From Monoplex corrugatus (Eukaryota > Mollusca > Gastropoda > Littorinimorpha > Ranellidae), in assembly GCA_030674185.1 (NCBI GenBank), contig CM060307.1, positions 59,177,981-59,241,980 of the forward strand: a DNA stretch of 64,000 nt, written 5' to 3'. Of the stretch, positions 23,708-61,984 are shown one piece after another. The notes beneath the pieces were generated by a model. It was not told where the DNA came from. It was given only the letters and a program-made list of their open reading frames with translations, and made no database searches. The stretch's first letter is position 1. Each line of letters begins with the position of its first letter. The position numbers and the translations under genes are program-made.

Positions 23708-23909
23708 CTACAGAAAAGTATGACGGCTCTGCCTAATTTCAGTTCTGTTGAATTTTCCACTAAAATCGGAAATCTGCATCATAGGCAAATATCGCTCAGG
23801 GTTATCAACAAAATCCTTCTGTGTTGGAGTGAAGTCTTGATCACTGACACCATGTGCCCGCAACTTGTCCTGGACATACTGCAAGTAATCATAGTCTGGG
23901 TAGCTATAC
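23708..23909 (-). CDS. Macro-RING-Deltex protein, last coding exon (end of DTC domain)
   Basis: After a TCTTCCAG acceptor the exon supplies one base to the split Arg codon, then YSYPDYDYLQYVQDKLRAHG, the closing helix of the Deltex C-terminal domain (YGYPDxxYLxxVxxEL in the family). About 40 further residues (DFTPTQKDFVDNPERYLPMM and on to RQSRHTFL) follow before TAG at 23708-23710. Deltex proteins normally stop soon after this helix, so the tail is an extension. Phase joins exactly with exon 26854-27071. By family, the DTC domain binds ADP-ribose/NAD and supports the RING in ubiquitin transfer. Confidence 0.9.
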
Positions 23910-24236
23910 CTGGAAGACAAATGATAATAAAACAACATGAGTATACACATGATTGTGATACATCAACGATACACCAAACAGTGAGCACTTCTATCAACGT
24001 AACATCTAAGTAACTATTGTCCCCTCTACTATATGTACAGTACTTTGGCTTTAAGTTTCAACTTTTCTGTTGTTTTAACTATTGTTTGGAACATTACATT
24101 TTTCTCACCACTTCAGGGACATAATATCCACTTCACTCTCTCAGGTTCCCTGAAACATCACCAAACCCAGGTCTGTTCTATCACAGTCAGGTGTCAAGCG
24201 CTCCTAGAAACTACATCAAAATGCCACAAAATGCCT

Positions 24237-24495
24237 AACGAGGTGTATGCCCTAGAGGATAAAGTACTCACCTTGGAAACAAGTAATCCAGATTCGATTC
24301 TGGGTTGGACAGGGGGGTTTTGCCCCCTACAAAAGGCCTAGACTGGTGGTCTAAGTGCTAGTCTTTTGGATGAGATGGCAAACCAAGGTCTCATACAGCA
24401 TGAACTTGGTGGACAAGAAAGATCTCCTGGAAAATGCAAGAGGAGTTCCTGGCAAAATTCTGCAGAAAATACACTGTCATTGGTGAAAAAAAGAA
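24237..24495 (+). mobile_element. tRNA-derived SINE with conserved central domain
   Basis: The A box region TGCCCTAGAGGATAAAGTAC and B box GATTCGATTCTGG are well preserved. The central part CTAGACTGGTGGTCTAAGTG, CTAGTCTTTTGGATGAGATG and CCTGGCAAAATTCTG has the look of SINE families I recall as common in gastropods. It ends in a short A-rich tail. Intronic to the Deltex-type gene. Confidence 0.7.
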
Positions 24496-24934
24496 AAGTG
24501 AGTGGTGTGTACTATGTCAACTGCCTTTGCCCGAGATAGCAACCCACATTTTACGTGTAAAAATTCTGCTGTGACAAAAACTGAATCCGTCCAACCAAAT
24601 CCAACTAGACTTGACCCAGTGATGACATGAACTGATGAAGATGTCTCCAATGAGATAATCATTACAAAGCTTCAAGAGGTCTAAAATTGGCTGTTGGTGA
24701 GAATGAATTCTGCCTAATTTCTTGGCCGTTTACTCTACAAAATCAGCCCTCAACTGAAACACCGATCAATACTATCACAACCTCCATATCTTCTTCAAAT
24801 TTTTTTCTGGCCAATCATCACTTTGTTTTTTGTAACATACAGTGTACACTGAAGAATGATGCAAATGAAAAGACAGAGGCAGAGTGGTAAGGTAACTTAA
24901 GTATGTACTATTGTTTGGTAAAGACTTTTAATGC

Positions 24935-24942
24935 TCTGTGTG

Positions 24943-24993
<51 letters not shown>

Positions 24994-25004
24994 TGTGAGT
25001 GTAT

Positions 25005-25043
<39 letters not shown>

Positions 25044-25264
25044 TGTGTGCAGGTGTGTGGTGAGTGTGAGAGAGAGACAGAGAGAGGTGTGTGTGTGTGT
25101 GGTGTGTGTGTGTGTGTGTGTGTGTGTGTTAAGAGAGAGAGAGTGAGTGTGTGTGAGTGAATGTGTATACATGTGAGTGTGTGTGCGTATGAGAGCGAGA
25201 CACACAGAGAGACAGACAGAATGAGAGAGAGACAGTCTAGAGTGTGTGAGTGTGTGTGCGTGCG

Positions 25265-25307
<43 letters not shown>

Positions 25308-25345
25308 TGTGTGTGTGTGTGTGCACGTGCGCGCGTGTGCGTGTA
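24935..25345 (+). repeat. Compound (TG)n/(AG)n microsatellite, ~400 bp
   Basis: Three long TG tracts separated by AGAGAG patches, in the last intron of the - strand gene. The VCVCV and THTHT open frames over it are artefacts. Confidence 0.97.
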
Positions 25346-25780
25346 CCTGCGCAACAATTAACCCATTACCATGAAAAGTGCAGTGTGCATGCTTCTAACA
25401 TGGACAGCTTGCATCACATAGATGATGCTATTATTATTATGTATTCTGAAATGCTGACCTTGTCAATGCGCATAGCAAATGTAACGTATCTGGTCTTTTC
25501 CTTTCCCCAACCCTACACAATCTTTCTGATCTGCTTTGTGTGTATTCAAGAAAAAGGAGCGAATAAAAGTTTATTCTGTATAGGAGCATAGAAAAAAATT
25601 ATGATAACGAAGACGATTATGGTTAATTATACTGCTGTTTTTCATGCACAGTGCAACTCAATTTTTTTTAAAGATTGGAACTCGATAAATAATTTCTTAT
25701 AAGTTGATGACAATTGAGGCAGAATGTTTTATATTTTATTTTACATTTCATATTGTTATTTATGTTTTATTTTTTATATA

Positions 25781-26130
25781 TTATAAAGGATTTATCTTTA
25801 CACTGTTACTGAGGTTTATATTATATTGATGATGATGGACTCTCCTATCAATCCAATGGATGAATAGACATACTAGTCCTTTTTCACCTAGTATGGTCTT
25901 CATATGGGAAACACGATCAATTCTGTAGGCGCATGTTCTTCTGCAGGTGCTGTATGGGAAGAGTCCTGCAGCCTTGGGTTCTACTTCTGCCAGTCCATCC
26001 TCTACTGAATAGTAGCTGTTCTGCACAACGAAAATGTAAATTTGCCTTGCATGCTCTGCTGCTGCTAACTCTGTTGTGGGCCTCTTCCCAGCTGATATTG
26101 ATGCCACAGCTGATGATGTTAGCACTGTAT
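25781..26130 (-). mobile_element. Unclassified interspersed repeat
   Basis: A frame gives protein-like sequence (SAGKRPTTELAAAEHARQIY) and ends in TCATCATCAATATAAT tail-like sequence when read on the - strand. It abuts the LINE fragment at 26229. I recognise it only as repeat-like; no second copy is in the window. Confidence 0.3.
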
Positions 26131-26228
26131 TACATTATAGCAGTACATAATAATCAAGACTATGGCATACTTTTCACATGGATTGTTTGCGCTATACAAA
26201 TGAACTAATCATTGCTTTAAATGAAAAT

Positions 26229-26670
26229 CTTGCATACCTTTCCCTTGCTCTCCTCTGCTGGCTGCATCTTCTGCCTCACTTGAAAGACTGTCCATATACG
26301 ACTGCTTATCAGCTCTTGTATCTGCCTTAACTGTACAGTCAGGTTCCTTGTGCAATGCTCATGTTGTACTTGGCATCACTCTTTTAATCTCTCTGACTTG
26401 GCCTTCATGATTTGTTTCTATTCAGGGTTCTCTTGTTTTCAATGGCTTGCCATGTGTCTGTTGTAATCCATTCTTTTCTCTTCTTCTGCTTTGATCCCAG
26501 GCAGGGTTCATGGTTTGGAAGTACGCTTTTTTGATCTACTCCCATTTCTGTGCAGTCAACTTATCTGGGTTTCACTGTGTCTCACCTGTCTCACCTGTCG
26601 GCGTCGCCGGGTTCAGTGTTGGCCTTCAGTATTTGCAAGATCTTGGAACTTGTTCTTCAGCTATATGACA
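26229..26670 (-). mobile_element. LINE fragment (endonuclease-RT linker region)
   Basis: Read on the - strand with frameshifts it gives KKREWITTDTWQAIENKRTL and, further on, DKQSYMDSLSSEAEDAASRG with EQGK. This matches the linker between endonuclease and reverse transcriptase of LINEs that are abundant in molluscs and often misannotated as craniofacial development protein 2-like. Several stops and shifts make it a dead fragment. Confidence 0.65.
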
Positions 26671-26853
26671 AACACACTTTTCTCTCTGGGATCACACAGA
26701 GTCTTTAGATCTAATAGCTGATGTCCTGTTTTTGTTGTTCATATTAAACTAGTATCCCCCCAAAATCTTTACAGCTCTGTCATTATTTTCATGACCATTA
26801 TTTCAATTGATTATTCTGCATTAGCAAAAGTTTGCGAACTATTTATACTTTAC

Positions 26854-27071
26854 CTTGACTGAGCATAAGGTGTGTGCTCTGTCTTGTGAAGAATGTCATT
26901 CCATACAATGCCCACGGTATCACTGTTGGACAACTTTGCCACAGAGAAGATCAAACCCCGATCAAAAGCAACCTTCAGCAGCATCAGTACCTTTCTGCCC
27001 TTTGTGTTGTTTGGTAGAAACGCCTCTTTCTTATAGCCTTTGTATGAGCAGCCTGGCTGAGGGTCTTCTTT
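26854..27071 (-). CDS. Macro-RING-Deltex protein, DTC domain middle exon
   Basis: Starts after a TGTAATCCAG acceptor in phase 0 and ends AG|GTAAAG, leaving two bases for the next codon. It encodes KEDPQPGCSYKGYKKEAFLP, GRKVLMLLKVAFDRGLIFSV and VGIVWNDILHKTE. These are the signature blocks of the Deltex C-terminal domain, including the conserved xPNPGxxYxG, LPxNxxGRKVLxLLxxAFD and WNDIxHKT elements. The HKT region belongs to the pocket that binds ADP-ribose/NAD in human Deltex proteins. Confidence 0.95.
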
Positions 27072-27689
27072 CTGGATTACACAACAAAACAAAATAAACA
27101 AATCCAACAACCCCAAAACACTCACATTTTGATGAACATGTACATGCATCATTTTAAGTGACGAACCTTCAGAAAAAGAACTGTACAAAGTGCTTTTTTT
27201 TTTAACTCAACTTTCACCCATACATCTTATTTAGCATCATGGCTTAATTACAAACTGGCAAAAATGGACCATTAAATGAGCTGTGTTTTGCAACAGTTTA
27301 GTATGAAGGAGAGAAATGAGTACCACCCTAGGAATTCTGACCCTGAGAAAAGTTGATGTCTACCACCTCACTCCCCTATGACTCAAGGATTATGAAATAA
27401 TCTTTGCTTTATCCTTGTTTTACTGCTGTTCCAGCTAGTAATCAAACTTCTACCAAGCAAACATGATTCCAAAAAAAAACTATGCTTAAGAAATATATCT
27501 CCCATGTTTACAAAAACAGCAAGTTTGGAAAATGGCTCTTAGCTAGTAACTTCTACCATTGAAAAATAAAGTACCATTGTCGTTATCAAGTCATGTTTAG
27601 TTTAAAGCCAGCCAAGCTTGATTTTCTTTTATTAGTGACCAATAATATCCCACCCTCAAGAGAGGAAAAAAACTCATGTAATCTTATAG

Positions 27690-27885
27690 CCCTCTGCAGG
27701 CATGAAAGCTATATCTTCTGAATTAGCTGGAGAAGCTCTGAAGACCAGAGCTGTCCCAACCAAACAGCCAGAAAGATTCACAAGGATGGAAGCACCAACT
27801 CCCTTTAATCTAAAGCAGGAAAGGCCATTGGAAGAAGGCACTCTCGACCTTTTCCAACTGTTCAAAGTCCCACATGGGGTCATGC
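27690..27885. other. Possible interspersed repeat in the RING-DTC intron
   Basis: Open on both strands with ordinary amino-acid composition (for example MEAPTPFNLKQERPLEEGTL on +). There are no splice borders or family match that I can defend, so I treat it as probable repeat DNA. Confidence 0.2.
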
Positions 27886-28510
27886 TAGAGGTTATCTGGA
27901 CTGGGAAGTGTCCCCTTTTTCAGCTTGCTTTTGGAACTTCTCTTACAGCAGACTGACGACTAAGGTTTTATTGTAAGTTATTACTGACAATAAAGGTTTC
28001 ATTTTAAGTTATTAGTACTAACTGTTACTACAACTGTTACTGTTCTAAATTCAAAATTGTATCAAATTCAAAATTATATCAAATAAGTTTCACATTTTTA
28101 TTTGCCTATTTTACATAATTTATTCCCTTTTTGCATGTTCACCTAACTTCACTGCCTCTTGAGATTAGTCATGGAAACAGCATACAAAGCGCATTTGATT
28201 CTGTTGACTTCCAGCAACTTTTGCACAAGAGCTATTGGATAACATCATACAGTCAGCAGAATCATACCAGGCGTTCTAGTAACTGGTAACAATCAATGGA
28301 AAAGACAAATGAACTAAACAGTCATTTCAAGTTTCCTTTGTATCAATCAGTTTGAAGTAAAACTGAGGTGTAAGTAGATTTGCAGGGATAGGCCTAGACC
28401 TTTACCTTCCTGTAGTCAACATTATGGTCAATCAAAATTGATGGACACATTTCTGTCCTGCCCCTGGAATGAAGGCCCAAGGCACAAGTGACATTGAAAA
28501 TACAGATAGA

Positions 28511-28527
28511 AATGTGTGTGTGTGTGT

Positions 28528-28564
<37 letters not shown>

Positions 28565-28570
28565 TTTTGT

Positions 28571-28648
<78 letters not shown>
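28511..28648 (+). repeat. (TG)n microsatellite
   Basis: About 140 bp of TG repeat with two small interruptions, intronic. Confidence 0.97.
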
Positions 28649-28650
<2 letters not shown>

Positions 28651-28724
28651 GCATGGGTATACACTGATGGAAAGACTGACATAAAGAGTGTGATATGCTA
28701 AAGAAGATAACCATATCTGTGGCA

Positions 28725-29115
28725 GAGGTGAGTGCCATACTGCAGTTGTCATTTCATGGCTCACCATCACCACAACACCCAAATTTTGAGTGCAAGAGGC
28801 TCTTGTCTCATCCACTTTGGACATCTCCCTTATAGTCATATTTCAGTTTGTGCGTGTTTGTTCATTCTTTGATGTCTTCTCACTGTGAGTGATATAAGAC
28901 AATTGTGTGTGCATGCGTGCGTGCGTGTGTGCATGCGTGTGTGTAGGTTGGTTTTTTTTTTATCTTTCTCAGATTAAGAGGAAACAGATGCAAGGGCAGT
29001 TAGTGACTGACAGCAGTTGTAGTCCTTTGGTTCACAAGTCACAACACCCAATATTGAGTGTAAGGGGGTCTCCTCTCACCCACCTTTGACATCTTCCCTA
29101 AAGTCACATTTCAGT
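28725..29115. repeat. Two diverged direct copies of a ~100-bp segment
   Basis: Shared pattern CACAACACCCAA...TTGAGTG...TCATCCAC/TCACCCAC...TTTGGACATCTCCCT/TTTGACATCTTCCCT...AGTCA...TTTCAGTTT at about 28755-28850 and 29038-29118, separated by a TG-rich patch. Confidence 0.6.
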
Positions 29116-29899
29116 TTTTCATCTTCTCTTAAGTAGGAGGCAATAGAATGCAAGGGCAGGCTCCCTGAGGGGGGTACCAACATGACAAGAAAAGCACTGC
29201 TATTTTTCATTTTGTGAACTGGCCAGTCACAGGTCAGCCAGGGTGCTTGATGAAACAGCAGGTGCAACAGGAAAGACTTGAAAGAAGTGATATGGGTAAC
29301 ATATTATGGCAAGTTTCACAGCCCTGAAGGCCAGGATATGGTTTGACAAATGAAGGGACACTGTAGTGCACAAATTTTAAAGGTAGATCTGTATTCATGC
29401 TTTAGTCTTGCTTGAACATTTAAAATCTGGACAAAGATCCTTCCCTGTTCAGAGAACATACAGTTCAGAGAAAGTACAGTTCAAACACTGATCAATGGTT
29501 GTTCCAAACTGATTTAGCTGAGAGGGCCATGACTGGAAGCTGAACACGTGACAGAAGAGAAGGAAGTAGACTGCTCACACACATGTGTGTTACTGTTACA
29601 CGATTATTTTCCTGCCCAGATTTATGGCCATGTTACCAACGATAGAAAACAATGGATGGCTGGTTTTAAAGCGAAATGTGACATGGCTTGTCCTCTTCTT
29701 TCTTCCTGCAAACTAGGTTCTAGGCTATCCTCTTCAATGGGCTTATGTCCATCCAGCCACCTTCATCTTGTTAATGCACTTTCTCCACATCTGCTTTGGG
29801 GCTGCCCCTTCCCTCTTTATATATCAATCTCTCCTTTCATCACAATTTTGGTTATTTCATCTATTGTGACATAATTATACAACAACAACAAACACTTAC

Positions 29900-30393: not shown

Positions 30394-30617
30394 CTGAAAC
30401 ATGCACACACCATGGCTGTTTTCATGTAATTTACATTTTACACACCTACTAATGCAAGCACTTTTATCACAACAAAACAGCTAAATAACAGTAAGCATAT
30501 CAGACAGCATCCCCCTGTCAAAGGAAAAGAAAGCTACTATTTCCAATACATTAAGTATCACCTATTTGATATCAAGAACTTATCCTAAACACTGGATTAT
30601 ATGAAGGATTCACTGAT

Positions 30618-34728: not shown

Positions 34729-35619
34729 CTTTCATCTGAGGAAATGCAGCAATTGCAAGAGTTTTGATGTGTTCTCTGGAAGCAGCGTTGAAGACTTTCT
34801 CTATGTATCTGCATATCTTAGTCATGTCCTGTACATCGGAAGGCAACATACAACAGGAGATCAGCAGCTGATATCCATACCAGTCTGACACAAAAGAGTT
34901 ATTTTTTAGTGTCTTTTTAAGTCTTGGTATTATTTGTCTTGCAAAGTGTGCTCCGTTTCTGTCAATGATCTGTTTGGAATCGAGGTCTTCAAAGAAATCA
35001 CCTTGACATGGCTGCCACAATGTGATACTCTCTACGTCCATGGAGGAGATGTTCTTTCTTTGAAAAATCAAGTGAAGACCTCCAATAATGAAACGTTTCA
35101 CAATGTCTGATTCACCAGCTACTGTCTCAATCCCTGGGGCAGATACATCAGGAACCTCAGGCGCCTTTTGGACATGTGCACCTGCACAGTTCTTGAAGCT
35201 CTCTGGCAATGGTTCTGTGTTCCCTGGCTGCTGCCTAGCACAGTCAGCTTCACCATGTTTATCAGCCAAGTAGATTTTTTCAGTATTTTCCGTGGTTTTA
35301 CTCTGGGAGCTAGTTTGTGCAGACACAGGAATATTGCCTGGATCTGAATACTGTCTTGATGCCCACATATCACATCTTTTTGTGGCCAGCATATCTGTTC
35401 CGCTAACAGAATCACTGGGTGGTGGCTGGGGGTTTACAGACAACATGCAGGTGTCCCACTTTTGTGTAAAAGTGTCCTGGATAATGCTGACCATGGTATC
35501 ATTCACATCAACAAAGTGGACATGACAGAGACTGGTATGACCTCCATATTCCTTGTCAAATTTCTGAACGGCTGACAGGTAACACTCGGCACAGATGTGT
35601 TGGGGTACCCCAAAGATTG
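34729..35619 (-). CDS. Macro-RING-Deltex protein: end of macro 2, linker, start of degenerate macro 3
   Basis: Exon from TTTTTTCCAG|CA to AAAG|GTTTGG (the donor is weak). It completes the canonical macro domain of the previous exon: AIFGVPQHICAECYLSAVQK and HVHFVDVNDTMVSIIQDTF. A ~90-residue polar linker follows, rich in Ser/Thr/Pro. Then IVKRFIIGGLHLIFQ and ITLWQPCQGDFFEDLDSKQI open a second macro-like fold that reaches MTKICRYIEKVFNAASREHI and KTLAIAAFPQMKG. This copy lacks the NAAN motif and the glycine-rich loops, so ADP-ribose binding is doubtful. The split Gly codon matches the acceptor at 30393. Confidence 0.9.
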
Positions 35620-41470: not shown

Positions 41471-41539
41471 TGTTGAAATCAAATAGACATTTAAATTTTG
41501 TAATATGGTTTTGTTTGTAAAATCTGGATTACTCATCAG

Positions 41540-42030
41540 TGGCCAACAGATTGGAAACTTCAAGAATTTGTGATGCTTCACAAGAGTGGCAATGTCAAAG
41601 ATTGCAACAACTACAGAATCAATGAGCTAATCAGCCATACCAGTAACATCCTGCTCATAACTATTCTCAACGGATTGAAGCCCAGGATAGAAGAACTATC
41701 TGACTGCCAAGGAGGCTACAGATCCAATAGAAGCACAACTAATATGCTCTTTGTGCTACAAACACTCAAACAGAAAATGAAAAGCACCAAAAAAAAGCTT
41801 TTGTCACCTTCACAGACTATAGCAAAGCATTTGACAAGTGTCATTCATCTCCATATGTTCAGCACAATGGTCAAAATGGGTTTTCCCAAACACATCACTG
41901 CATTAATTGCCTCATTATATATTTAGACCAAAAGGCTACAGTCAGATGGAATGATCAGAAATGTGAATTCTTCAACATCTACAGGGGCGTCAGACAAGGT
42001 TGTATCCTCTCATGAATTTTGACAACAGCT
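41540..42030 (+). mobile_element. LINE RT fragment, same family as 56110-57960
   Basis: WKLQEFVMLHKSGNVKDCNN, then YRSNRSTTNMLFVLQTLKQK and FSTMVKMGFPKHITALIASL. These parallel the RT block at 56657-57000 residue by residue with substitutions. A shift near 41925 and later stops end it. Confidence 0.75.
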
Positions 42031-42551: not shown

Positions 42552-43703
42552 CTGAGCTGACAGAACTGACAGCCAATGTTTTAAATCCACATTCATGTGA
42601 CGTTTTCAGGCAGTTGAAGACTGTTTCTGAAAGATGTCGCCGACAAACTGATTTGTCTGTATAATCATCCCAGCGTGGTCCAACAGCATGAAGCACCTTC
42701 TTGCAAGACAACAATCCCCCAGTTGTCACAGCAACATCAGTTACTTTCAAAGTCCCATGCCCTTTGATGTAGTCAGCACCTTCATTCTCCAGCTCAAACC
42801 CAGCAGCTCGAGCAATGGCATAAGCAACACCACCACCATGACTAAGGTGCTCATTGGCAGCATTAACAATGGCATCTACAGGCAGCTTTGTTATATCTGA
42901 TTTGTATGCAGATACTCTGATGCCAGACTTGGTGAAACGATCAGCCCAGATCATTCTGGGACAAGTTCCTGCATTTGTTGAGGTATGGCCCATGGAATTA
43001 GACGGAAACTGGCCAGTTTGGTTTCTCCTTGATTCTGGATTTTCACCTGCAAATCTTCTTTTGCCCCTGGATGTAACTTTGACATTTCCAAGTTTCACAT
43101 TCACCACATGCCTCGCTTTTGCAAGAGTAGTATATTCAAAACTGAAGATGAGTACCTTCCCTTGATACAAGTCAGGATAAATGAAAGCATCAACTCCTTC
43201 ATGCTTAGTGTCAAATGGCTCACCGAGTTTTGAAACTTCTTCTTTTGAAACCTGCAATTCCTCTTTTCGGAGAGAATTCATCTTGTTCAACATTTCCTGG
43301 GGTGGAGAAGAACCATGGTACTTTATTTCTCTTTTATCACTGATCTGTTCATTTACAGTAAACATTTTAACAAACTCCTCTCCCATCAGTGCTGAAAGTG
43401 CTAAATACTCTTGGTGTTCAATCACTTTGCTCCATTTCTCCTCTCTGTCCTTTCCCTCTTTCCTTGAAGCAGTACTCTGGATCTGATGAGGAGAACTTCT
43501 GACTTGATGATCAGACAAACAGATAAATTCTTTGATAGTTGCTGACACATCATCAAAATGCTCAGGCTTAAACCAAATATGTTTACGTGGGGCATTGCCT
43601 TCTTCATTTTGTATTTTCATAATCTTGCTGTCACAAAGTTTTTCTTGAAAACCTCTGTATGTAGTACAGACAGTGGTATGGAAAGGCTGCACAAAGCCTG
43701 ATT
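42552..43703 (-). CDS. Macro-RING-Deltex protein: large exon with linker and canonical macro domain
   Basis: The largest exon, 384 codons' worth, from TTGTTTCAG|AA to TCAG|GTAAAA. The first ~230 residues have no firm domain; part (AFIYPDLYQGKVLIFSFEYT then TLAKARHVVNVKLGNVKV) may be a KH-like module as in PARP14. From about residue 265 comes a clear macro domain: VDAIVNAANEHLSHGGGVAY, GHGTLKVTDVAVTTGGLLSC, KKVLHAVGPRWDD and TLAVSSVSS. It has the NAAN, GGG and HAVGPRW motifs of the ADP-ribose-binding macro domains of PARP9/PARP14. The start requires one base from upstream, whereas exon 45894-45976 ends in phase 0, so an intervening exon is probably missed. Confidence 0.93.
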
Positions 43704-45893: not shown

Positions 45894-45976
45894 ATCTGAC
45901 TCCAAGCTCAGCTCTTCAGGTTTTGCCTCAATTGCTTCTTCTATCCTCTCTTCAATCCCCTTTTGTGTTCTCCGTC
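45894..45976 (-). CDS. Macro-RING-Deltex protein: small linker exon
   Basis: Between TTTCAG|GA and CAGAT|GTGAGT lie 28 codons: GRRTQKGIEERIEEAIEAKP then EELSLESD. It is charged and probably helical. The split Gly codon joins in frame with exon 51829-51907. The downstream junction does not keep frame with the exon at 43703. Confidence 0.75.
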
Positions 45977-46869: not shown

Positions 46870-47244
46870 AAGGAAACAATCTGACAAACACCACATCCCA
46901 ACAATGCAACAAAAACAATTTGACAAAACACCAAATTCCAACAAAGCAACAAAACCAGTTTGATACAACACCACATCCCAAAAAAGAAAAAAAGAACAGT
47001 TTGACACAACACCACACCCGAAAAAGAAAAAAAAGTTTGACACAACACCACATCCAAAAAAGAAAAAAAAAACAGCTCGACATAACACCACACCCCGAAA
47101 AAGAAAAAAAGTTTGACACAACACCACATCCAAAAAAGAAAAAAAAACAGCTCGACATAACACCGCATCCCAAAAAAGAAAAAAAATACAGTCTGACACA
47201 ACACCACATCCCAACAATGAAAAAAAGTCTGATACAACACATCC

Positions 47245-47275
<31 letters not shown>

Positions 47276-50200
47276 ACCCAAAAAACCGGCAAAAGTACAG
47301 TCTGATACAATGCCACATCCCAACAAAGAAAAAGTACAGTCTGACACATCACCCACACCCCAACAAAGCAACAAGAACAGTCTGACACAACACCACATGC
47401 CAACAAAGCAAAAGAAAAGTCTGACACAACACCACATCCCAACAAAGCAACAAGAACAGTGTCACAAAACACTACATTCCAACAAAGTAACAAGAACAGT
47501 TTCTCAAAACACCATATTCCAACAAAACAAGAAGACAGTCTGACACCACACCATACTCCAACAAAGCAACGAAAACAGTCTCACAAAACAACACATTCCA
47601 ACAAAGCAACGAAAACAGTCTCACAAAACAACACATTCCAACAAAGCAACGAAAACAGTCTCACAAAACAACACATTCCAACAAAGCAACGAAAACAGTC
47701 TCACAAAACAACACAGTCCAACAAACCAACAACAAAGCAATGAGAACAGTCTCACAAAACACCATATTCCCACAAACAAACCAAAACAGTCTCACAAAAC
47801 ACCACATTCCAATAAGCGACAAGAACAGTCTGAAACAATACCATGTTCCAACAAAGCAAGGAAAACAATCTCACAAAACACCACAATCCAACAAACCATT
47901 AAGAACAATCTCACAAAACACCACAATCCAACAAACCATTAAGAACAATCTGACACAACATCACAATCCAACAAACCATTAAGAACAATCTCACAAAACA
48001 CCACAATCCAACAAACCATTAAGAACAATCTGACACAACATCACAATCCAACAAACCATTAAGACCAATCTGACACAACATCACAATCCAACCAACCATT
48101 AAGAACAATCTGACACAACATCACAATCCAACCAACCATTAAGAACAATCTGACACAACATCACAATCCAACCAACCATTAAGAACAATCTGACACAACA
48201 TCACAATCCAACAAAGCAACAAGAACAATCTGACACAACATCACAATCCAACAAAGCAACAAGAACAATCTGACACAACAACACAATCCAACAAAGCAAC
48301 AAGAACAATCTGACACAACAACACAATCTAACCAACCATTAAGAACAATCTGACACAACAACACAATCCAACAAAGCAACAAGAACAATCTGACACAACA
48401 ACACAATCTAACCAACCATTAAGAACAATCTGACACAACATCACAATCCAACAAACCATTAAGAACAATCTGACACAACAACACAATCTAACAAAGCAAC
48501 AAGAACAATCTGACAAAACACCACATTCCCATAAAGCATCAAGAACAGTCAGAAACAACACCACAATCCAACAAACCATTAAGAATAGTCTGAAACAACA
48601 CCACAATCCAACAAACCATTAAGAATAGTCTGAAACAACACCACAATCCAACAAAGCAACAAGAACAATCTGACACAACACCATAGTCCAACAAACCAAC
48701 TAAACACCATATGCCAACAAACCAACAAGAACAGTCCCACAAAACACCACGTTTCAACAAAGCAACAAGATCAGTCTCAAGAAATACCACACTCCAATAA
48801 GCAACAAGAACAGTCTGACAAAACACCACATTATGACAAAGCAACAAGAACAGTCTGACAAAAGACCATAATTGAACAGAGCAACAAGAACAGTCTGATA
48901 CAACACCACAGTCCAACAAAGCAACAAGAACAGTCTCACAAAACACCATATTCCAACAAAACAAGAAGACAGTCTGACACTACACCATACTCCAACAAAG
49001 CAACAAGAACAGTCTCACAAAACACCATATTCCAACAAAACAAGAAGACAGTCTGACACTACACCATACTCCAACAAAGCAACAAGAACAGTCTCACAAA
49101 CCCCATATTCCAACAAAACAAGAAGATAATCTGACACTACACCATACTCCAACAAACCAACAAGAACAGTCTCACAAAACACCATATTCCAACAAAACAA
49201 GAAGACAGTCTGACACTACACCATACTCCAACAAAGCAACAAGAACAGTCTCACAAAACACCATATTCCAACAAAACAAGAAGACCGTCTGACACTACAC
49301 CATACTCCAACAAAGCAACAAGAACAGTCTCACAAAAACCATATTCCCACAAAACACCATATTCCAACAAAACAAGAAGACAGTCTGATACAACACCATA
49401 CTCCAACAAAGCAACAAGAACAGTCTCACAAAACACCATATTCCAACAAAACAAGAAGACAGTCTGACACTACACCATACTCCAACAAAGCAACAAGAAC
49501 AGTCTCACAAAACACCATATTCCAACAAAACAAGAAGACAGTCTGACACTACACCATACTCCAACAAACCAACAAGAACAGTCTCACAAAACACCATATT
49601 CCAACAAAACAAGAAGACAGTCTGACACTACACCATACTCCAACAAACCAACAAGAACAGTCTCACAAAACACCATATTCCAACAAAACAAGAAGACAAT
49701 CTGACACTACACCATACTCCAACAAAGCAACAAGAACAGTCTCACAAAACACCATATTCCAACAAAACAAGAAGACAATCTGACACTACACCATACTCCA
49801 ACAAAGCAACAAGAACAGTCTCACAAAACACCATATTCCAACAAAACAAGAAGACAGTCTGATACAACACCATACTCCAACAAAGCAACAAGAACAGTCT
49901 CACAAAACACCATATTCCAACAAAACAAGAAGACAGTCTGACACTACACCATACTCCAACAAAGCAACAAGAACAGTCTCACAAAACACCATATTCCAAC
50001 AAAACAAGAAGACAATCTGACACTACATCATACTCCAACAAAGCAACAAGAACAGTCTCACAAAACACCACATTTCAACAAAACAAGAAGACAGTCTGAC
50101 ACTACACCATACTCCAACAAAGCAACAAGAACAGTCTCACAAAACACCATATTCCAACAAAACAAGAAGACAGTCTGACACTACACCATACTCCAACAAA

Positions 50201-51808
50201 CCAGCAAGAACAGTCTCACAAAACACCTTATTCCAACAAAACAAGAAGACAGTCTGACACTACACCATACTCCAACAAACCAACAAGAACAGTCTCACAA
50301 AACACCACATTCCAATAAGCAACAAGAACAGTCTGAAACATATACCATGTTCCAACAAAGCAAGGAGAACAATCTCACAAAACAACACATTCCAATAAAG
50401 CATAAAGAACAGTCTGAAACAACACACAATCCAACCAACCAACAAGAACAATCTGACACAACAACCACAGTTCAACAAAGCAACAAGAACAATCTGAAAC
50501 ACACCACATTCAACAAAGAACAAGAACAATCTGAAAACACCACATTCAACAAAGAACAAGAACAATCTGAACACCACCACATTTCAACAAAGAAAAGAAC
50601 ATTGAACACCACCACATTTCAACAAAGCAACAAGAACAATCTGAAACACCACCACATTTCAACAAAGCAATAAGAACAGTGTGACAAACACCACCACATT
50701 TCAACAAAGTAACAAGAACAATCTACACACCACCACATTTCAACAAAGCAATAAGAACAGTGTGACACACCACCACATTTCAACAAAGCAACAAGAACAA
50801 TCTAACACACCACCACATTTCAACAAAGCAACAAAAACAGTGTGACACACCACCACATTTCAACAAAGCAACAAGAACAATCTAACACACCACCACATTT
50901 CAACAAAGCAACAAAAACAGTGTGACACACCACCACATTTCAACAAAGCAACAAGAACAATCTAACACACCACCACATTTCAACAAAGCAACAAAAACAG
51001 TGTGACAAACACACCACATTTCAACAAAGCAACAAGAACAATCTAACACACCACCACATTTCAACAAAGCAACAAAAACAGTGTGACACACCACCACATT
51101 TCAACAAAGCAACAAGAACAGTTGACACACCACCACATTTCAACAAAGCAACAAAAACAGTGTGACACACCACCACATTTCAACAAAGCAACAAAAACAG
51201 TGTGACACACCACCACATTTCAACAAAGCAACAAAAACAGTGTGACAAAACACCACCACATTTCAACAAAGCAACAAAAACAGTGTGACACACCACCACA
51301 TTTCAACAAAGCAACAAGAACAATCTAACACACCACCACATTTCAACAAAGCAACAAGAACAGTCTGACACACCACCACATTTCAACAAAGCAACAAGAA
51401 CAGTCTGACACACCACCACATTTCAACAAAGCAACAAGAACAGTCTGAAACACCACCACATTTCAACAAGAACAATCTAACACACCACCACATTTCAACA
51501 AAGCAACAAGAACAGTCTGACACACCACCACATTTCAACAAAGCAACAAGAACAGTCTGACACACCACCACATTTCAACAAAGCAACAAAAACAGTGTGA
51601 CACACCACCACATTTCAACAAAGCGACAAGAACAGTCTGATACACCACCACATTCCAACAAAGCAACAAGAACAATCTGACAAAATTACTTCAATTCAAC
51701 AAAGCAACAAGAACAATCTGTGCAACAGCAATTAGCAAAGAAAAAATAGGAAAAAATCTACATTTCAACAAAGTGACAAGAACAATCTGACAAACACCAC
51801 ATTCTGAC
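46870..51808. repeat. 4.9-kb intronic minisatellite, 40-bp unit, about 120 copies, with 79/80-bp higher-order blocks
   Basis: The basic unit is AATCTGACACAACACCACAT then TCCAACAAAGCAACAAGAAC (40 bp). Blocks differ: A-rich/poly-C units to about 47450; AACAACACATTCCAACAAAG units at 47570-47720; ACCATTAAGAAC units at 47880-48480; a 79-bp dimer (40+39 bp) repeated about 17 times from about 48945 to 50290; CACCACCACATTTCAACAAA units, partly alternating as an 80-bp dimer, from about 50560 to 51650. The array ends about 20 bp before the splice donor of exon 51829-51907. Because 40 is not a multiple of 3 and stops are rare, all three - frames give repeated Cys/Leu/Val-rich peptides; these are not genes. 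Confidence 0.97.
47243..47265 (+). repeat. Poly-C run of 23 bases
   Basis: An uninterrupted C tract inside the minisatellite, followed by an A run. On the transcribed - strand it is G23. Confidence 0.97.
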
Positions 51809-52200: not shown

Positions 52201-52212
52201 ATCATTTCTTTT

Positions 52213-53393: not shown

Positions 53394-53482
53394 CTTTTCA
53401 ACGGCTTCTTCCACATCATTTTTCGCTCCATATAAATGCACTGTTGCATTTTGCACAGATGTCTCTGCAGGTGACAAATTCT
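53394..53482 (-). CDS. Macro-RING-Deltex protein: small exon, possible KH-like strand-helix
   Basis: Between CTTGACAG|AG and GAAAAG|GTAGGA. Encodes NLSPAETSVQNATVHLYGAK then NDVEEAVEKV after a split Glu codon. The pattern ATVHLYGAKNDVEEAVEKV (strand, turn, amphipathic helix) is like the KH-type repeats that accompany macro domains in PARP14-like proteins; that is a suggestion only. Phases fit both neighbours. Confidence 0.8.
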
Positions 53483-54465: not shown

Positions 54466-54469
54466 TCAT

Positions 54470-55625: not shown

Positions 55626-55629
55626 TGGA

Positions 55630-55865
55630 GTCAATCAGGCCCTACAGATACAGACACCTTGAGTGTTGGTCAAGAAATCTGAGCAAAGAAGATACAGACA
55701 CGAATGTGTGGTCTCAATCTTCTATAGTATGCTCAACTCTGTAGAAGCCAGCTGTAGCCAAAAAAATCTCACAATGATATGAACTGATAAGGATTTGAAC
55801 CTCCAACCTACTAGTCATCAGTACTTTAAACGAACCATTTCACTAAAGTGGCTGGCTACTCTTAA
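55630..55865 (-). mobile_element. tRNA-derived SINE, family B copy 2 (reverse)
   Basis: On the - strand: A box-like CACTTTAGTGAAATGG and B box GGAGGTTCAAATCC. The body matches 53040-53365 (GAGTGTTGGTCAAGAAATCT; TATGCTCAACTCTG; AAAAAATCTCACAATGAT). Confidence 0.65.
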
Positions 55866-55939
55866 CATTTCAAACAAATATAAAATCTTGCACTCTTTAC
55901 TCTTATCTCACCATGTCTTGGATACAGTAGCACCATTAC

Positions 55940-55988
55940 CTTTTCTTCCAGGTGCAGACTTGAAAAAAGCCTCTACTGCTTTGAATCT
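55940..55988 (-). CDS. Macro-RING-Deltex protein: 49-bp exon
   Basis: Between GCTTTTCAG|AG and GAAAAG|GTAATG: RFKAVEAFFKSAPGRK plus one base. It follows the macro domain's last strand in phase 0 and supplies the first base of the Glu codon completed at 53482. Short, but both borders and both phases fit. Confidence 0.75.
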
Positions 55989-56109
55989 CTGAAAAGCACA
56001 CAAAAACGGAGGTAGAGACATAAAATACAGTTACAATTTCATTCACATTCAGGTGGCATACAATCAATAAATCTCAATTTTTTTAATTTGTTTACAGTGA
56101 TCCTGTAAT

Positions 56110-57960
56110 TAAGTACAAGTTTCAACTTACTTATTGCCTATTATGCCAAGATAGAAGATTACAAAAGACTGAAAGAACCATATTCAGAAGAGATAAGAAG
56201 GCATGGATAGAAGAAGAATGCTCAAAAATCACAGAGGCAAATGTTCAGAGAAAAGAAAAAGAAATGTTTCAGCAAATAAGAAAGATGAAATCCACAAATT
56301 TTCAAGGACAAAATCAAAGCATAGACAGTAAATAGAGCGAAACCTTGACAGAGATGGAAGTTATTCTATCAAGATGGCATGAGTACGGCAAAGAACTTTT
56401 TCACAACAACACACCAGAACTCCCAAAAGATATTCCCTGCCTTGACTTTCAAGAACTGGAACCAAAACCTCTTATCAGCGAAGTCAGAGCAGCAATTGAT
56501 CAGCTGAAGTTAGGAAAATTACCTGGATTGGACAACATATCAGGCGAACTGTTAAAGAACACTGGAGAAGCAGATGTAATTGTCTTACATCATCTATGTA
56601 CAAGAATATGGGAATCATGATAATGGTCGGATGACTGGAAGATACAAGTATTTGTCATGCTATATAAAAACTGGAATACCAAGGACTGCAGTAACAACAG
56701 AACCATCGCCCTAATCAGCCACACCAGTAAAGTACTGCTAATCATCATACTGAACAGAATGAAACAAAAAGCAGAAGAAGAACTCTCTGACCGTCAGGCT
56801 GGTTACAGATCCAACAGGGGCACAACAGGCATGTTATTTGTCTTACAGATTTTGATAGAAAAAGTAAGGAACAGCAAACTAGCAGCTTTCATTACCTTTA
56901 TCAATTACAGCAAGGCCTGTAACAGTGTCATACACCATCAACTGTTCAACACCACTGCAAAGATGGGCTTCCCCAAACACTTGGCATCACTTACAGCAGC
57001 ATTATATGAAGACCAGAAAGCAACTATCAGATGGAATGGAGCACAATGCGAATATTTTGGCATTAAAAAAGGGGTCAGGCAGGGCTGCATCCTTTCGCCT
57101 CATTTTTTTAAACTTATATACAGAGCTGGTCATTAGAGAGGCAGATTCAGAAGAGATGGGACTAAAGATTGGAGGAAGAAACATCACCAACCGCAGATAT
57201 GTGTACGACACTGCATTAATGGCAGATAACATTACAAGCATGAAGAGAATTCTCTTCCAAGTAAATGCAGTAGGTCGCAGGGCAGGATGCTTAAAAAAAC
57301 CAAAGTAGCGCACACCACGTGAAAAGGCCAAGAACATCCAAATAAATAACACAGACTTCAAGACTTAGAAAATGTCCAACATTTCAAGTGTCTATGATCT
57401 ATAAAAGCAAAAGATGGCTCCTGCACCAAAGATGTGAAAACAAGAATTGGCATGGCAAAACAAAAGATGGTCCAGTAAAATAATGTATGGCAAGACAGAG
57501 GGCTTCCCAAAGATTTAAAACTAAGACCCCTGAAAATTTTTATTTGGCCTGTTTTTGTGTATGGTTGCAAAGCCTGGACACTAAGAAAAGACAAGAAAGA
57601 AAAGAAAATCACTGCAGCTCTCAGAATCAGATGGACAGAAGAACAAATGATAGAGTGTTAAAGGAACTGAATGTCAGAAGCCAGCTGCTGACAGAGTTCA
57701 ACAACAACAAAATGCTGAAATACAAAGGCCATGCAATCAGAAACACCAGAACAGATCTGATGTCAATGACCTGCAGGATAAAGTTGAGGCAAGAAGAAGA
57801 AAGGAACGACTGCACACCTGTTTCAACAACACTGCCGAAATATGTGGTCTGGAGATCCAGGAGGTCTCCCACAGATATCTTAATCGTATCAACCTGGAGA
57901 AAACATGTGACGTCAAGTGTGGCTCCTACTGCCGATCCCGGTGAGGGAGAGAGATGAAAT
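56110..57960 (+). mobile_element. LINE with RT, degenerate (RTE/L1-like)
   Basis: In order: pre-RT segment (MTEMEVILSRWHEYGKELFH at 56345; then LKLGKLPGLDNISGELLKNT), RT (NNRTIALISHTSKVLLIIIL; DRQAGYRSNRGTTGMLFVLQ; TAKMGFPKHLASLTAALYED; GVRQGCILSPHFF; then YVYDTALMADN in place of the YADD box) and C-terminal block (VLKELNVRSQLLTEFNNNKM, LKYKGHAIRNTRTDLM). Frameshifts at about 57110 and elsewhere. In YVYDTALMADN the catalytic box is altered. Intronic, opposite to the host gene. Confidence 0.88.
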
Positions 57961-58245
57961 GATGACTATGCCACTGGCATGTAGGGCAGCAATGAAGATT
58001 CTCCTCTTCTGTCTGTTCTGGACAAGCCTCTGTGTAGTACTCCAAGTATGTTTTAGGGCCTTGAGGGCTCCTCTTGTTTGTAGCCAGGTCTTTCTTGGGT
58101 CTTCCTCTCTCATGTCTACCTTCTGGAGTCCAGTGAAGGGCAACCCAAGTGATGTTATCCTTCTCTTTTCTGATGATGTGTCCAATCCATCTCAATCACC
58201 TTTTCATTATGATAATGCCCATACTCTCTTGATTAAATTTTGAAG
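57913..58245 (-). mobile_element. LINE 3' end fragment, opposite orientation
   Basis: The - strand reads RMRWIGHIIRKEKDNITWVA, then LHWTPEGRHERGRPKKDLAT and in a second frame NRQKRRIFIAALHASGI. This is the typical C-terminus of LINE RT proteins (GHxxR...RGRPK...W...ALH) with a shift in the middle. Its 3' end meets the 3' end of the + strand LINE. Confidence 0.8.
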
Positions 58246-58347
58246 CAGTTCTACATATGAGGGACTATACTGGGACATCATTTGTGTTTATCTGCTCCCT
58301 TCCCCACATAAAAGTGCCAGACAAGACTGCTATTTATAAATGACTGA

Positions 58348-58463
58348 TTAATCCTTTAACTCCCTTACGCTATCCACCAGCTTTCCACATTATCAACCAT
58401 GATGAAAAAAAAAAAAATTAAATTTTTGAAGCAGCAAATAGGATGAGGGAGTGAAAGAATTAA
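58348..58463. mobile_element. TTAA-flanked MITE, 116 bp
   Basis: Ends TTAATCCTTTAACTCCCTTA and GAGGGAGTGAAAGAATTAA are inverted, extended by CGCTATCC/GGATGA inside, with TTAA at both borders. Same family as the MITE at 63445-63690. Confidence 0.85.
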
Positions 58464-58474
58464 ATACACTCTGG

Positions 58475-58570
58475 TTTGATAGATCAATGGATGACCATAA
58501 GGCATCAAATGGAAAGATTTTGTGACAAACCACAGGGCATGAAATGGAAAGATTTTGTGACAAACAATGA
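58475..58570. repeat. ~35-bp tandem duplication
   Basis: Two copies of GGCATCAAATGGAAAGATTT then TGTGACAAAC in a row. Confidence 0.75.
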
Positions 58571-58861
58571 AGTCAAGAAGCACACAGATTCCAGTTACTA
58601 ACATCATCTGCAAGCATCAACTGAATTGGCTGGATCTTGCTGCTGGGCTGATGTCTTCCAGACCTGTTCATCAAGTCCTGAACTGGAAACCAGAAGGACA
58701 GTGAAGAATGGGAAGACAAAAAAATGAACTGCACCAAACAGCTGACATATACCTACCACTGGTGGATAGATACTGGAGTGATGCCCAAAGACTCTGCCAA
58801 CCAAGCCCATTACAGAGCTTTTGCTGCTTCATTTGTCACATGACACACAAGTGTCTAAGAA

Positions 58862-59411
58862 AGTAAAGCCCAGCTGTTTACTCACAGTCATATCAGAGAC
58901 ATAACCATCTCAAACAAAACATATATCTTAATACACTGATGATCCTGGAAAAAGAAAACCAGGAAAAATAATACACATATCACTGCATTCATGCAAATAA
59001 TCTAAGGATATGTCCTTGGCATTGGCCATTCTGCCAAATATATCACCAAAGGGATTATAAAACAAACCCAAACGCAAATGCATAAACATAACCGGGTACA
59101 CGAAAACATGCATAAAAACTGGTCTGTTCTTCCTAAAACTGACACTACTCAGTTCACATTTTCTTAAGGCTACAAATGCATTCAATGTTAGTACTCAATC
59201 AGCAATGCTGACAGACAGAAAATATGCAAGGCTTTATGGAAAACATACAGAGGACAAATCTGCAAAGCAAAAAACGAGAAAGAAAGAGATGACAGAAAAC
59301 AATGGGGCAAGTTAGAAACAGAGAGAGTAACAGTAAAGAGGAAATTTCTAGCGCATTTCAGGTGGGGATAGTACTTATACTGAAATACCCCTGGCATCCC
59401 CATGGAAGGTA
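58862..59411 (-). mobile_element. ~0.55-kb retroposon, copy 4 (reverse)
   Basis: Matches copies 2 and 3 from AAAGCCCAGCTG...CATATCAGAG to CCCCTGGCATCCCCATGG. The A-rich tail seen in copies 2 and 3 is short or lost here, and I could not define target duplications. Confidence 0.8.
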
Positions 59412-59685
59412 TTCACCAGCTGGCCAAAGGAATACTTTCTACTCCTGTAGACAATAAACAATACCAACATGCCAAATTCTAAACTAGTATAAGCTATACC
59501 AATGAGATACAGAATGGAACACATGTATTTACAAACAACAAAAATTAACAAAACAAATATGTAATCTCAACTACAGACAATTTAGGAAACAACTAGTGTT
59601 TATATCTTCTCATTATGATCTGTAAACAATTTAGAATAAAAATCAATATGTATATGTTTTATCATATTTTGATTTTGATCGTTAC

Positions 59686-59931
59686 CTGAATCAAAGGTCT
59701 GTCCTCTGGAAAACAGACAATGTAGACAGTATGAAGCGATGAATGTGGCATATCAACAAAGAAGTCCCGAGCAGCACTGAACATGGTTTCTGCGACGCTG
59801 TCTGCTGGATATTTTAGCTTACCAGTACCCAAGGTTGGGAAAGTGATGCTTTTATACTTGTGAGCACTGGCCAATGTAAGACAGCAATGCACTCGGTTAC
59901 GAAGTTCTTCCAAAAGATGCTCATTGTTTTC
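59686..59931 (-). CDS. Macro-RING-Deltex protein: second half of N-terminal macro domain
   Basis: 82 codons in phase 0 between ATCTCAG|GA and TTCAG|GTAACG. ENNEHLLEELRNRVHCCLTL, ASAHKYKSITFPTLGTGKLK and YPADSVAETMFSAARDFF are the classic second half of a macro domain: a helix with the Cys/Leu-rich core, then the SITFPxLGTGxxxYP loop that contacts the diphosphate. HTVYIVCFPEDRPLIQ is the last strand. It joins directly to exon 61757-61984. Confidence 0.95.
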
Positions 59932-60229
59932 CTGAGATACACAGGCATGAAGATGGTGACATATATGATAAATGAACAACACAGAAACAACAAACCAAAG
60001 ATGGTTCTAAGTTCTAAAAACAAACTCACAAACAATGGTCCTGCATCTTTCACATGACTGCATCTGGAATGCATTGGCAGCTTTATGGAGTATCTTAAAA
60101 TATCCTGGTTATGAGCAAAACCATAACTGCTCCCCAGATATAGTACTGAATGATTTCACTGTGGGTATTTTAAACTGGCCAAGTATTCATGTTTGCTTTG
60201 GTGGTACTATTCAGTACACATACTGCTTA

Positions 60230-60760
60230 ATGTTCAGTTCAGTTAATATTGCTTATGGCCCAACTGACCAGTAAGGCCATATCACGGCTAACACTACATT
60301 AAACACAATTCCAAATCTAATTAAAAAGCCAACATATGTTTTGAAAATGGCTGATTAAAAGTAGCAGAAGGCCACAAAACACCTTTGTCAGACTTTGGTT
60401 GACAAGAGTTCTGCATAAAAGAACTCACATGCCAATGAACTGGTACAGTCTTTACCGAAGAAAGCAAGATTAAAACAGACCTAGTTTGTTTTAAAGATCC
60501 ATAATGGGCCGTCCAAAATTGAGGAGAGAAGTCTGAAACAACTGCTAGATTATATCTGCATTCTGTAAGAGGGGAAGGATGCAGACTCCAAGAGGAGGAG
60601 TACGTTTTGAGTTTTCTTTGAATTGAGTTTTATGTTTGGGATTAAAGACGCAGTCATAAGCAGGGCTTTTCAGTTCAGTGAACAATAATAGAATAGTATA
60701 TGAAATTCGTTACGAGCGCAGAGATGTCATCTTGAGAAACTGAAACTGAAACTGAAACTG
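60230..60760. other. Intron stretch with a diverged retroposon-like edge
   Basis: GCCCAACTGACCAGTAAGGC then CATATCACGGCTAACAC near 60258-60294 recalls the GCCCAGCTGACTGCATAGAG then CCATATCAGGGCTATAA edge of the 0.55-kb retroposons, but the rest does not match. A (GAAACT)n patch is at about 60736-60760. Confidence 0.35.
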
Positions 60761-60963
60761 CATAATAAGCTGCATACAGGGTTGGATAACTGGCAGAGCA
60801 TGTCTATGACACTGGAGGACTGTGGGATCAGTAAGCTATAGTATAACTATAAGCCATAAGCTGCTGTGAGCAGTAAGTGCATCAACAATTATCCCTTAAT
60901 TATCTGACTCTGCAAACACTGCCCCAGTTACATCTCCCCTACCTAAACCTCACTTACAGTCAT

Positions 60964-60964
<1 letters not shown>

Positions 60965-61018
<54 letters not shown>

Positions 61019-61026
61019 TGTGGTGG

Positions 61027-61082
<56 letters not shown>

Positions 61083-61137
61083 TGTGTGCGTGCGTGCGTG
61101 CGTGCGTGCGTGGCGTGCGTGTGTGTGTGTGTGCGTG
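60965..61137 (+). repeat. (TG)n/(TGCG)n microsatellite
   Basis: TG repeat, a GGTGG interruption, then about 25 GCGT units. Confidence 0.97.
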
Positions 61138-61433
61138 TGCAAGTGTGCAAATGTGTGTGTTGTGCGTTATGAAGCTTTAGATTTCACTTAATCAGTTACT
61201 GTCAAAAGACTCCTGTATCTGAACATTCTCACTAAATGACCTCATAAGTACATCTCATTCATACATAAATAAAGATCATCTCATTCATAATATGTCTGTA
61301 TGTTCATTTCCAAGCTGGGCAATGACAATACAACTTTAACGCTAAGCTGACAACAGAAAGTTCAATGATTTGCAATGACCATGACAGAGAGAGAATGCAT
61401 GTGAATGTGTGCTGCGTGAGTGTGAATGTGTGC

Positions 61434-61443
61434 TGTGTGTGTG

Positions 61444-61524
<81 letters not shown>

Positions 61525-61569
61525 GGATGTGTGTGTGTGTGTGTGTTCTGTGTGTGTGTGCATGCATAT

Positions 61570-61631
<62 letters not shown>

Positions 61632-61668
61632 GTGTGTGGTGGGGTGTGTGTGTGTTGTGTGTGTGTGT

Positions 61669-61722
<54 letters not shown>

Positions 61723-61732
61723 CACGTGCATG
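61434..61732 (+). repeat. ~300-bp (TG)n microsatellite
   Basis: Long TG tract with scattered interruptions. On the transcribed strand it is a CA repeat starting about 20 bp after the donor of exon 61757-61984. Confidence 0.97.
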
Positions 61733-61756
61733 CGCGCATGCGTGTGTTTGACTCAC

Positions 61757-61984
61757 TTTGTCTTTCCATGTACAAGGTGGTAGTACAACATGGAAAATTT
61801 TCTTCACAGATTTCAGGTCAAAACTGTTGGTGACTGCAACAAGACATTCCCCTCTGAGGGGCTTGGGATATTCTTTCTGACATTCTGCTCTGAGTTTATG
61901 ACCAGCCTTTTCTAGTAATGCTTTAGAAACCCGTCCATGTGTATGTTCAAGAAACTTATCAGTTGAGTTGACCATGACATCAGT
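61757..61984 (-). CDS. Macro-RING-Deltex protein: first half of N-terminal macro domain (first visible exon)
   Basis: 76 codons, phase 0 at both ends, between TGTGTGCAG|ACT and GACAAA|GTGAGT. TDVMVNSTDKFLEHTHGRVS is the macro-domain P-loop region with NSTD in place of NAAN; then KALLEKAGHKLRAECQKEYP, GECLVAVTNSFDL and KKIFHVVLPP follow the family order. Because it begins inside a macro domain (the first strand and GDIT-like segment are missing), at least one earlier exon must exist; I see none in 61985-64000, so it lies beyond the window. PARP14-like or DTX3L-like are both fair names for the gene. Confidence 0.92.

Follow-up and report, generated by a model that had tools for sequence, protein, structure and literature searches.

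A predicted gastropod gene that joins a macro domain to a RING-DTC end with an altered Deltex dyad

Exons and domains at the locus

We analyzed a stretch of 64,000 nucleotides from the gastropod Monoplex corrugatus (GenBank assembly GCA_030674185.1, contig CM060307.1, positions 59,177,981 to 59,241,980 of the forward strand). This whole stretch is called the window, and positions are counted from its first letter. The window contains a predicted minus-strand gene in which a macro domain is followed by a C3HC4 RING and a DTC domain. Exons were defined from splice-site scores and phases on the genomic sequence. Seven exons, all on the minus strand and all open, were obtained. E1 (61984-61757; phase 0 in, 0 out; acceptor 2.4, donor 8.1) encodes the first part of a macro domain, macroA, and E2 (59931-59686; phase 0 in, 0 out; donor 8.5) encodes the rest of it. 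E3 (43703-42552; phase 1 at both ends) encodes an N-terminal part, a pair of KH-like units (about residues 91-203) and most of a further macro domain, macroB. E4 (35619-34729; phase 1 at both ends) carries the end of macroB (to about 35456), a linker and the first two thirds of a putative third macro domain, macroC (about 35113-34729). The putative end of macroC (about 30393-30239), the RING and the start of the DTC lie in E5 (30393-29900; phase 1 in, 0 out). E6 (27071-26854; phase 0 in, 2 out) encodes the middle of the DTC, and E7 (23909-23708; phase 2 in) encodes its end and the stop codon. The phases agree at the E1/E2 (0), E3/E4 (1), E4/E5 (1), E5/E6 (0) and E6/E7 (2) junctions. From E3 through E7 to the stop codon, the open frame comprises 984 full residues, and its introns cut through domains: macroB is split between E3 and E4, and the DTC is split among E5, E6 and E7. 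Because the introns sit inside domains and the phases agree, E3-E7 can be read as one gene. An earlier note on this DNA had proposed a single chain of macro domains and RING-DTC with matching phases, from 61984 to 23708. We obtained the same outer limits, and the intradomain introns together with the phases from E3 to E7 argue for such a chain. The matching of phases holds for E1/E2 and for E3 through E7; it does not hold from E2 to E3 (0 versus 1).

The RING (30157-30041, minus strand) fits the pattern C-x2-C-x12-C-x-H-x2-C-x2-C-x10-C-x2-C, and all eight C3HC4 ligands are present, although its Pfam scores stay under the cut-offs (zf-RING_2, 18.5 bits; cut-off, 27.3). The three pieces of the DTC tile the Pfam profile: E5 alone covers positions 2-38 (24.4 bits; cut-off, 25), E6 covers 37-107 (70.8 bits) and E7 covers 111-133 (16.1 bits). 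The joined DTC scores 128.4 bits (E = 2.5e-37) over positions 2-133 of 133. The C3HC4 RING and the full DTC domain named in the earlier note were therefore both recovered. In the profile check of the joined translation that the note had called for, Macro and DTC matched and RING remained under the cut-offs. A C-terminal DTC with a RING before it is the arrangement of the Deltex (RING-DTC) ubiquitin ligase family.

MacroB stands firmly in this chain. E3 alone matched Pfam Macro at 1.2e-24 (profile 1-106), and addition of E4 gave 8.6e-27 (profile 1-117 of 118). The best match in the PDB was PARP14, and the alignments to 3vfq and 9qyd run on into E4. In an AlphaFold2 (AF2) model of E3, residues 246-383 superposed on macro domains, with Z values of 18.6 for macroH2A, 17.9 for Escherichia coli YmdB, 17.4 for macro domain 1 (MD1) of PARP14 and 17.2 for PARP9 MD1; these top values are tied within about 1. 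In hydrolase macrodomains, as described in the accessible part of PMC10221186, loop 1 lies between Asn/Ser and Gly, and loop 2 carries a hydrophobic-aromatic pair. MacroB keeps this MD1-type pattern (VNAANEHLSHGGG with IF); its loop 1 and loop 2 motifs are NAANEHLSHGGG and IF. We found 163 database proteins similar to macroB. Among the 120 listed, the 22 highest-ranking (P0001-P0022) share 61-79% identity with it; P0036 is 64% identical over a shorter stretch. In 21 of the 22, P0018 being the exception, the macro sequence halts at or beside the end of E3, as it would if the relatives shared this intron. The relatives point to E3 as a member of a multi-copy family with at least 22 open reading frames (ORFs), which does not imply a RING-DTC in them. 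The ORFs of the relatives have Gly at the site of the macroB codon that is split by the intron, but they read partly into their own introns there.

The front of E3 may contain two KH-like domains. Residues 91-203 of the model form two tandem beta-alpha-(alpha)-beta-beta-alpha units (43093-43431, minus strand). This is the order of KH-like domains, and the assignment is made by the topology of the model only. The model was built from 35 aligned sequences, few of which cover the front of E3. Its predicted local distance difference test scores (pLDDT, in blocks of ten) are 90-97 over residues 91-200 and 82-96 over residues 251-380. A Pfam search of the E3 front gave no KH match, a PDB sequence search gave one match (E = 0.34, a ribosomal protein), and a profile search against the PDB gave macro matches only. 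The Foldseek and VIA lists for E3 were filled by macro domains, and no fold search was made of the KH part alone. In PARP14, KH domains other than the eighth stand before MD1. PARP14 has eight KH domains, the eighth of which adjoins WWE-ART (PMC13224862, accessible part).

MacroC is probably a degenerate macro fold that spans E4 and E5. A macro profile aligns residues 98-178 in register over the E4/E5 junction, and 6 of 5000 shuffled sequences scored as high; with another profile, 5 of 2000 did so. An ungapped count from a shared KTLA motif puts the macroC and macroB introns two residues apart and in the same phase. By the gapped profile alignment, the distance between them is about eight columns. 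Pfam at E<=10 returned nothing beyond weak matches to Raftlin and NEW1_HB. In the PDB there was no match at the usual threshold; the best were an unrelated protein (0.62) and an ADP-ribose 1''-phosphate phosphatase (1.5). Profile-profile comparison gave a probability of 1.9%. The predicted fold of the E4 part had a pLDDT of 48, with no macro domain in 50 of 151 fold matches. Thus, the degenerate third macro of the earlier note retains a weak in-register alignment, and neither Pfam, nor the PDB at the usual threshold, nor the listed fold matches of its E4 part return it as a macro domain.

MacroA and the gap between E2 and E3

Pfam Macro matches E1 with 30.6 bits (profile 1-72) and E2 with 34.5 bits (profile 57-118), and the joined sequence with 66.8 bits (2.1e-18). 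Because the joined score exceeds those of the parts, E1 and E2 are taken as one macro domain. An exon for its strand beta-1, expected upstream of E1, was not found. The best PDB match of macroA is also PARP14 (5o2d and 3vfq, in the latter better to the second macro of PARP14). MacroA is MD2-like (NSTDKFLEHTHG with LK); the hydrophobic-aromatic pair that active macrodomains have in loop 2 is missing from its loop, GTGKLKYP. Because macroB fits the hydrolase pattern and macroA fails in loop 2, macroB would be expected to be an ADP-ribose eraser or reader, like MD1, and macroA an ADP-ribose reader, like MD2.

Whether macroA belongs to the same chain depends on the gap of 16 kb between E2 and E3, over which no phase-matched join on good sites was found. 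A phase-0 acceptor for E3 at 43686 scores -3.3; a direct E2-E3 join through it served only as a search query and is not claimed to be real. Two candidate bridging exons were obtained, scored with a codon model that was trained on the same seven exons. X1 (53394-53480, minus strand), a KH-like strand-helix by eye, has phase 0 at both ends only if the AG at 53480 is used; with the stronger AG, at 53482, the phase is 1. Its score with the 53482 acceptor, 17.8, was reached by 7 of 60 Markov controls, and X1 is therefore weak. X2 (45894-45976, minus strand; phase 1 to 0) encodes a helix, perhaps the start of a KH-like domain. Its score was 27.3, against 16.5 for the plus-strand control and at most 19.9 among 60 Markov-1 controls, and X2 is a likely minus-strand exon between E2 and E3. 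When the best sites are used, X1 and X2 do not link up with E2 and E3. Two further candidates were rejected. For 58122-57930 (phase 0 to 1, the top score on relaxed sites at 20.2), another frame is open (21.3) and no KH character was seen by eye. The candidate 55988-55912 (phase 0 to 2, 22.4) scored above all 60 controls, yet no neighbor fits it in phase and it has no KH character. These two non-KH candidates show that the exon scan does not single out KH exons.

The strongest alternative is that E1 and E2 belong to a neighboring PARP14-like gene and that the fusion gene begins near or inside E3. The disagreement between the phase 0 end of E2 and the phase 1 acceptor of E3 speaks for two genes, as do in-frame Met codons within E3. 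Duplication of PARP14-like genes is, moreover, frequent; in the lancelet, one chromosome carries a group of at least four (PMC4245714, accessible part). On the other hand, the E2 donor is good, X2 is a likely exon, and Pfam scans of the gap at 51.5-59.7 and 43.7-46.6 kb gave no ART, WWE or further macro exon, with the reservation that a short ART or WWE exon could escape because short true exons score low on their own (E7, E = 0.013). No AATAAA or ATTAAA occurs within 2 kb after E2; this says little because the real stop codon is likewise followed by none within 2 kb. We regard two genes as a real possibility that falls short of an even chance. In our judgment, macroA sits in the same chain as E3-E7 with fairly good likelihood, and no more than that because the phases of E2 and E3 disagree on the best splice sites. 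Of the two clear macro domains in one gene proposed by the earlier note, macroB is thus well tied in, and macroA is linked only via unproven exons. The note's statement that no ART/PARP catalytic domain is visible agrees with Pfam scans of most, not all, introns, which gave no ART hit and included no positive control exon; the chain ends in the DTC and a stop codon.

Much of the E2-E3 gap is occupied by a tandem repeat array of 4.8 kb (46874-51719; units of about 40, 80 and 158 bases). A reverse-transcriptase fragment (RVT_1, 6.6e-16) lies at 56624-57136 on the plus strand, antisense within the large intron. A plus-strand piece at 41504-41926, also antisense in a large intron, resembles it by eye only and gave no reverse-transcriptase hit. 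Retroelement insertions would be expected to look like these two. A tandem array with a 35-base unit (about 56 copies) covers 21005-22911, about 800 bases beyond the stop codon. An open frame at 1615-2058 (minus strand) weakly resembles a TNRC18-like SH3 domain (E = 0.0085, below the cut-off) and is perhaps an exon of a neighboring gene.

The altered dyad of the DTC and rival readings

In the accessible part of PMC7615817, His582 and Glu608 of DTX2 are described as strictly conserved among DTX proteins, and every tested change of these residues, E608Q included, impaired Ub-NAD formation. In DNA ubiquitylation by DTX3L, H707A abolishes and E733A considerably impairs the activity (PMC11460948, accessible part). 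We read the corresponding sites after aligning the DTC to fragments of DTX1, DTX2 and DTX3L. The site of DTX2 His582 (DTX3L His707) is occupied by Leu (CTT, 26891-26889, in E6), and that of DTX2 Glu608 (DTX3L Glu733) by Lys (AAG, 23866-23864, in E7). The third pocket residue, at the His594/Tyr719 site, is Tyr (23908-23906, in E7). Because Leu and Lys replace the essential His and Glu, the ADP-ribose-ubiquitylating chemistry of this DTC is probably lost. The gene is therefore placed in the Deltex domain family by its RING and DTC and is not filed as an ADP-ribose-ubiquitylating Deltex. The ADP-ribosyl-ubiquitin chemistry envisaged in the earlier note is not supported for this DTC. Among 945 database candidates (length about 626-1990) and 9 further ones, none matched the RING-DTC part at E<=0.001, which we attribute to poor coverage of animal proteins rather than to true absence; nor did two scans of viral contigs give a relative.

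Taken together, we favor one minus-strand gene with KH-like units, an MD1-type macro, a probably degenerate macro, a C3HC4 RING and a DTC, and probably with an MD2-like macro upstream, which would encode a macro-targeted ligase for ordinary ubiquitin. We give this a probability of about 0.55. Several points weigh against it. The chain is known here solely from genomic sequence, and the phases of E2 and of the good E3 acceptor do not match. The KH assignment comes from topology alone, and macroC is statistically weak. Both sites of the E4/E5 junction are mediocre (E4 donor at 34729, 4.4; E5 acceptor, 1.6), and E4 contains stronger donors at 34881 and 35002 (7.5 each). In loop 2 of macroB, the codon split at 42552/35619 encodes Ala (GCA) at a site that is Gly in human MD1s. 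Because no related RING-DTC sequence turned up, the dyad change is seen in a single sequence and could stem from an error in it or from decay of this gene copy.

If the gene were a decaying paralogue, the dyad and the third macro would have degenerated through loss of function. The Leu/Lys dyad, the barely detectable macroC, the Ala in macroB loop 2 and the family of at least 22 ORFs related to E3 are compatible with decay. However, seven exons are open, the RING ligands are intact and the DTC keeps 128 bits over profile 2-133 of 133, and we consider decay unlikely. A still less probable case is an active ADP-ribose-ubiquitin writer, in which other residues stand in for the dyad and the macro domains present an ADP-ribosylated substrate to the DTC in cis. 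The Tyr shared with DTX3L and the conservation of much of the DTC would suit this activity; the impairment of Ub-NAD formation by all tested substitutions of His582 and Glu608 (PMC7615817) opposes it. Least of all do we expect a macro gene (E3-E4) beside a separate Deltex gene (E5-E7) with phases matched by chance, since the agreeing E4/E5 phases, the weak alignment in register over the junction, the shared phase and, by ungapped count, similar position of the macroB and macroC introns and the lack of a Met ahead of the RING in the E5 frame count for more than the poor E4/E5 splice sites, the stronger donors inside E4, the weakness of macroC as a bridge and six AATAAA/ATTAAA motifs within 2 kb after E4.

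Known systems and proposed mechanism

PARP14 is similar in its front: units that are KH-like by topology stand before an MD1-type macro here, an MD2-like macro probably accompanies them, and both macroA and macroB match PARP14 best in the PDB. Its C-terminus is KH8-WWE-ART (PMC13224862, accessible part), in contrast to the RING-DTC here, where no ART was seen. The layout thus looks like a PARP14 front whose WWE-ART end is replaced by a Deltex RING-DTC end. MacroPARPs (PARP9/14/15) have tandem macros and a C-terminal ART. In this chain the ART is missing from what was scanned, and of possible tandem macros macroB is firm, macroA depends on the unproven exons and macroC is weak. DTX1, DTX2 and DTX3L share a RING followed by a full-length DTC, and DTX3L shares the Tyr at the Tyr719 site. 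The Deltex ligases differ in that the present chain also carries a macro domain and has Leu and Lys at the His-Glu dyad. DTX3L has the layout RRM, KH1-5, RING, DTC (PMC13224862), without a macro; a macro is present here, and the 5' end of the gene lies outside the window.

The PARP9-DTX3L heterodimer of vertebrates likewise brings macro reading or erasing and RING-DTC together, but as two proteins and not one chain; here, no ART-like domain was seen and the dyad is changed. The comparison with PARP9 and DTX3L in the earlier note is apt in that both functions are joined, while a PARP14-type front on a Deltex back is closer than simply PARP9 plus DTX3L. According to the accessible part of PMC10221186, molluscs have PARP14, and PARP9 is confined to jawed vertebrates; PARPs have been linked to ubiquitination (PMC4245714). 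By function, RNF114 and RNF166 are also comparable because a reader of an ADP-ribose-containing mark is coupled to a ubiquitin ligase (PMC12583694, accessible part). Their reader is a Di19-UIM module in place of macro domains, and no homology is claimed.

A macro domain and RING-DTC in one chain were not described in the titles and abstract openings of open-access papers among the matches listed. The words DTX3L and Deltex are absent from the main text of PMC10450202, and the accessible parts of PMC11251020 and PMC11080071 mention no macro/RING-DTC fusion. The same architecture may well be present among automatically named database entries. What is new here is the predicted Leu and Lys at the ADP-ribose-ubiquitylating dyad of this DTC.

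For the single macro-RING-DTC gene, the best reading of the sequence is a reader/eraser and ligase in cis. The domain order and the residue changes are observed, and the steps of binding, trimming and ubiquitylation are inferred from them. The macro domain or domains would bind ADP-ribose and bring the ligase to mono-ADP-ribosylated targets, on which macroB may trim the ADP-ribose mark. The RING would recruit a ubiquitin-charged E2 enzyme (E2~Ub) and place ordinary ubiquitin on lysines of the targets or their partners. The DTC without its His-Glu dyad would be a relic, at most a binding platform or a structural part. A bolder proposal is that the gene is a natural chimera in which the DTC is a pseudo-enzyme pocket and macro targeting in cis replaces a partnership of the PARP9-DTX3L type; this is conceivable, and we hold it as rather doubtful.

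With both functions in a single chain, the geometry would be fixed, and the protein would offer a compact means of asking whether ordinary ubiquitylation is directed by ADP-ribose recognition. With its dyad gone, the DTC would part ADP-ribose-ubiquitin chemistry from the other roles of the Deltex end. If the fusion is old, it would be a "Rosetta stone" for the origin of the PARP9-DTX3L complex.

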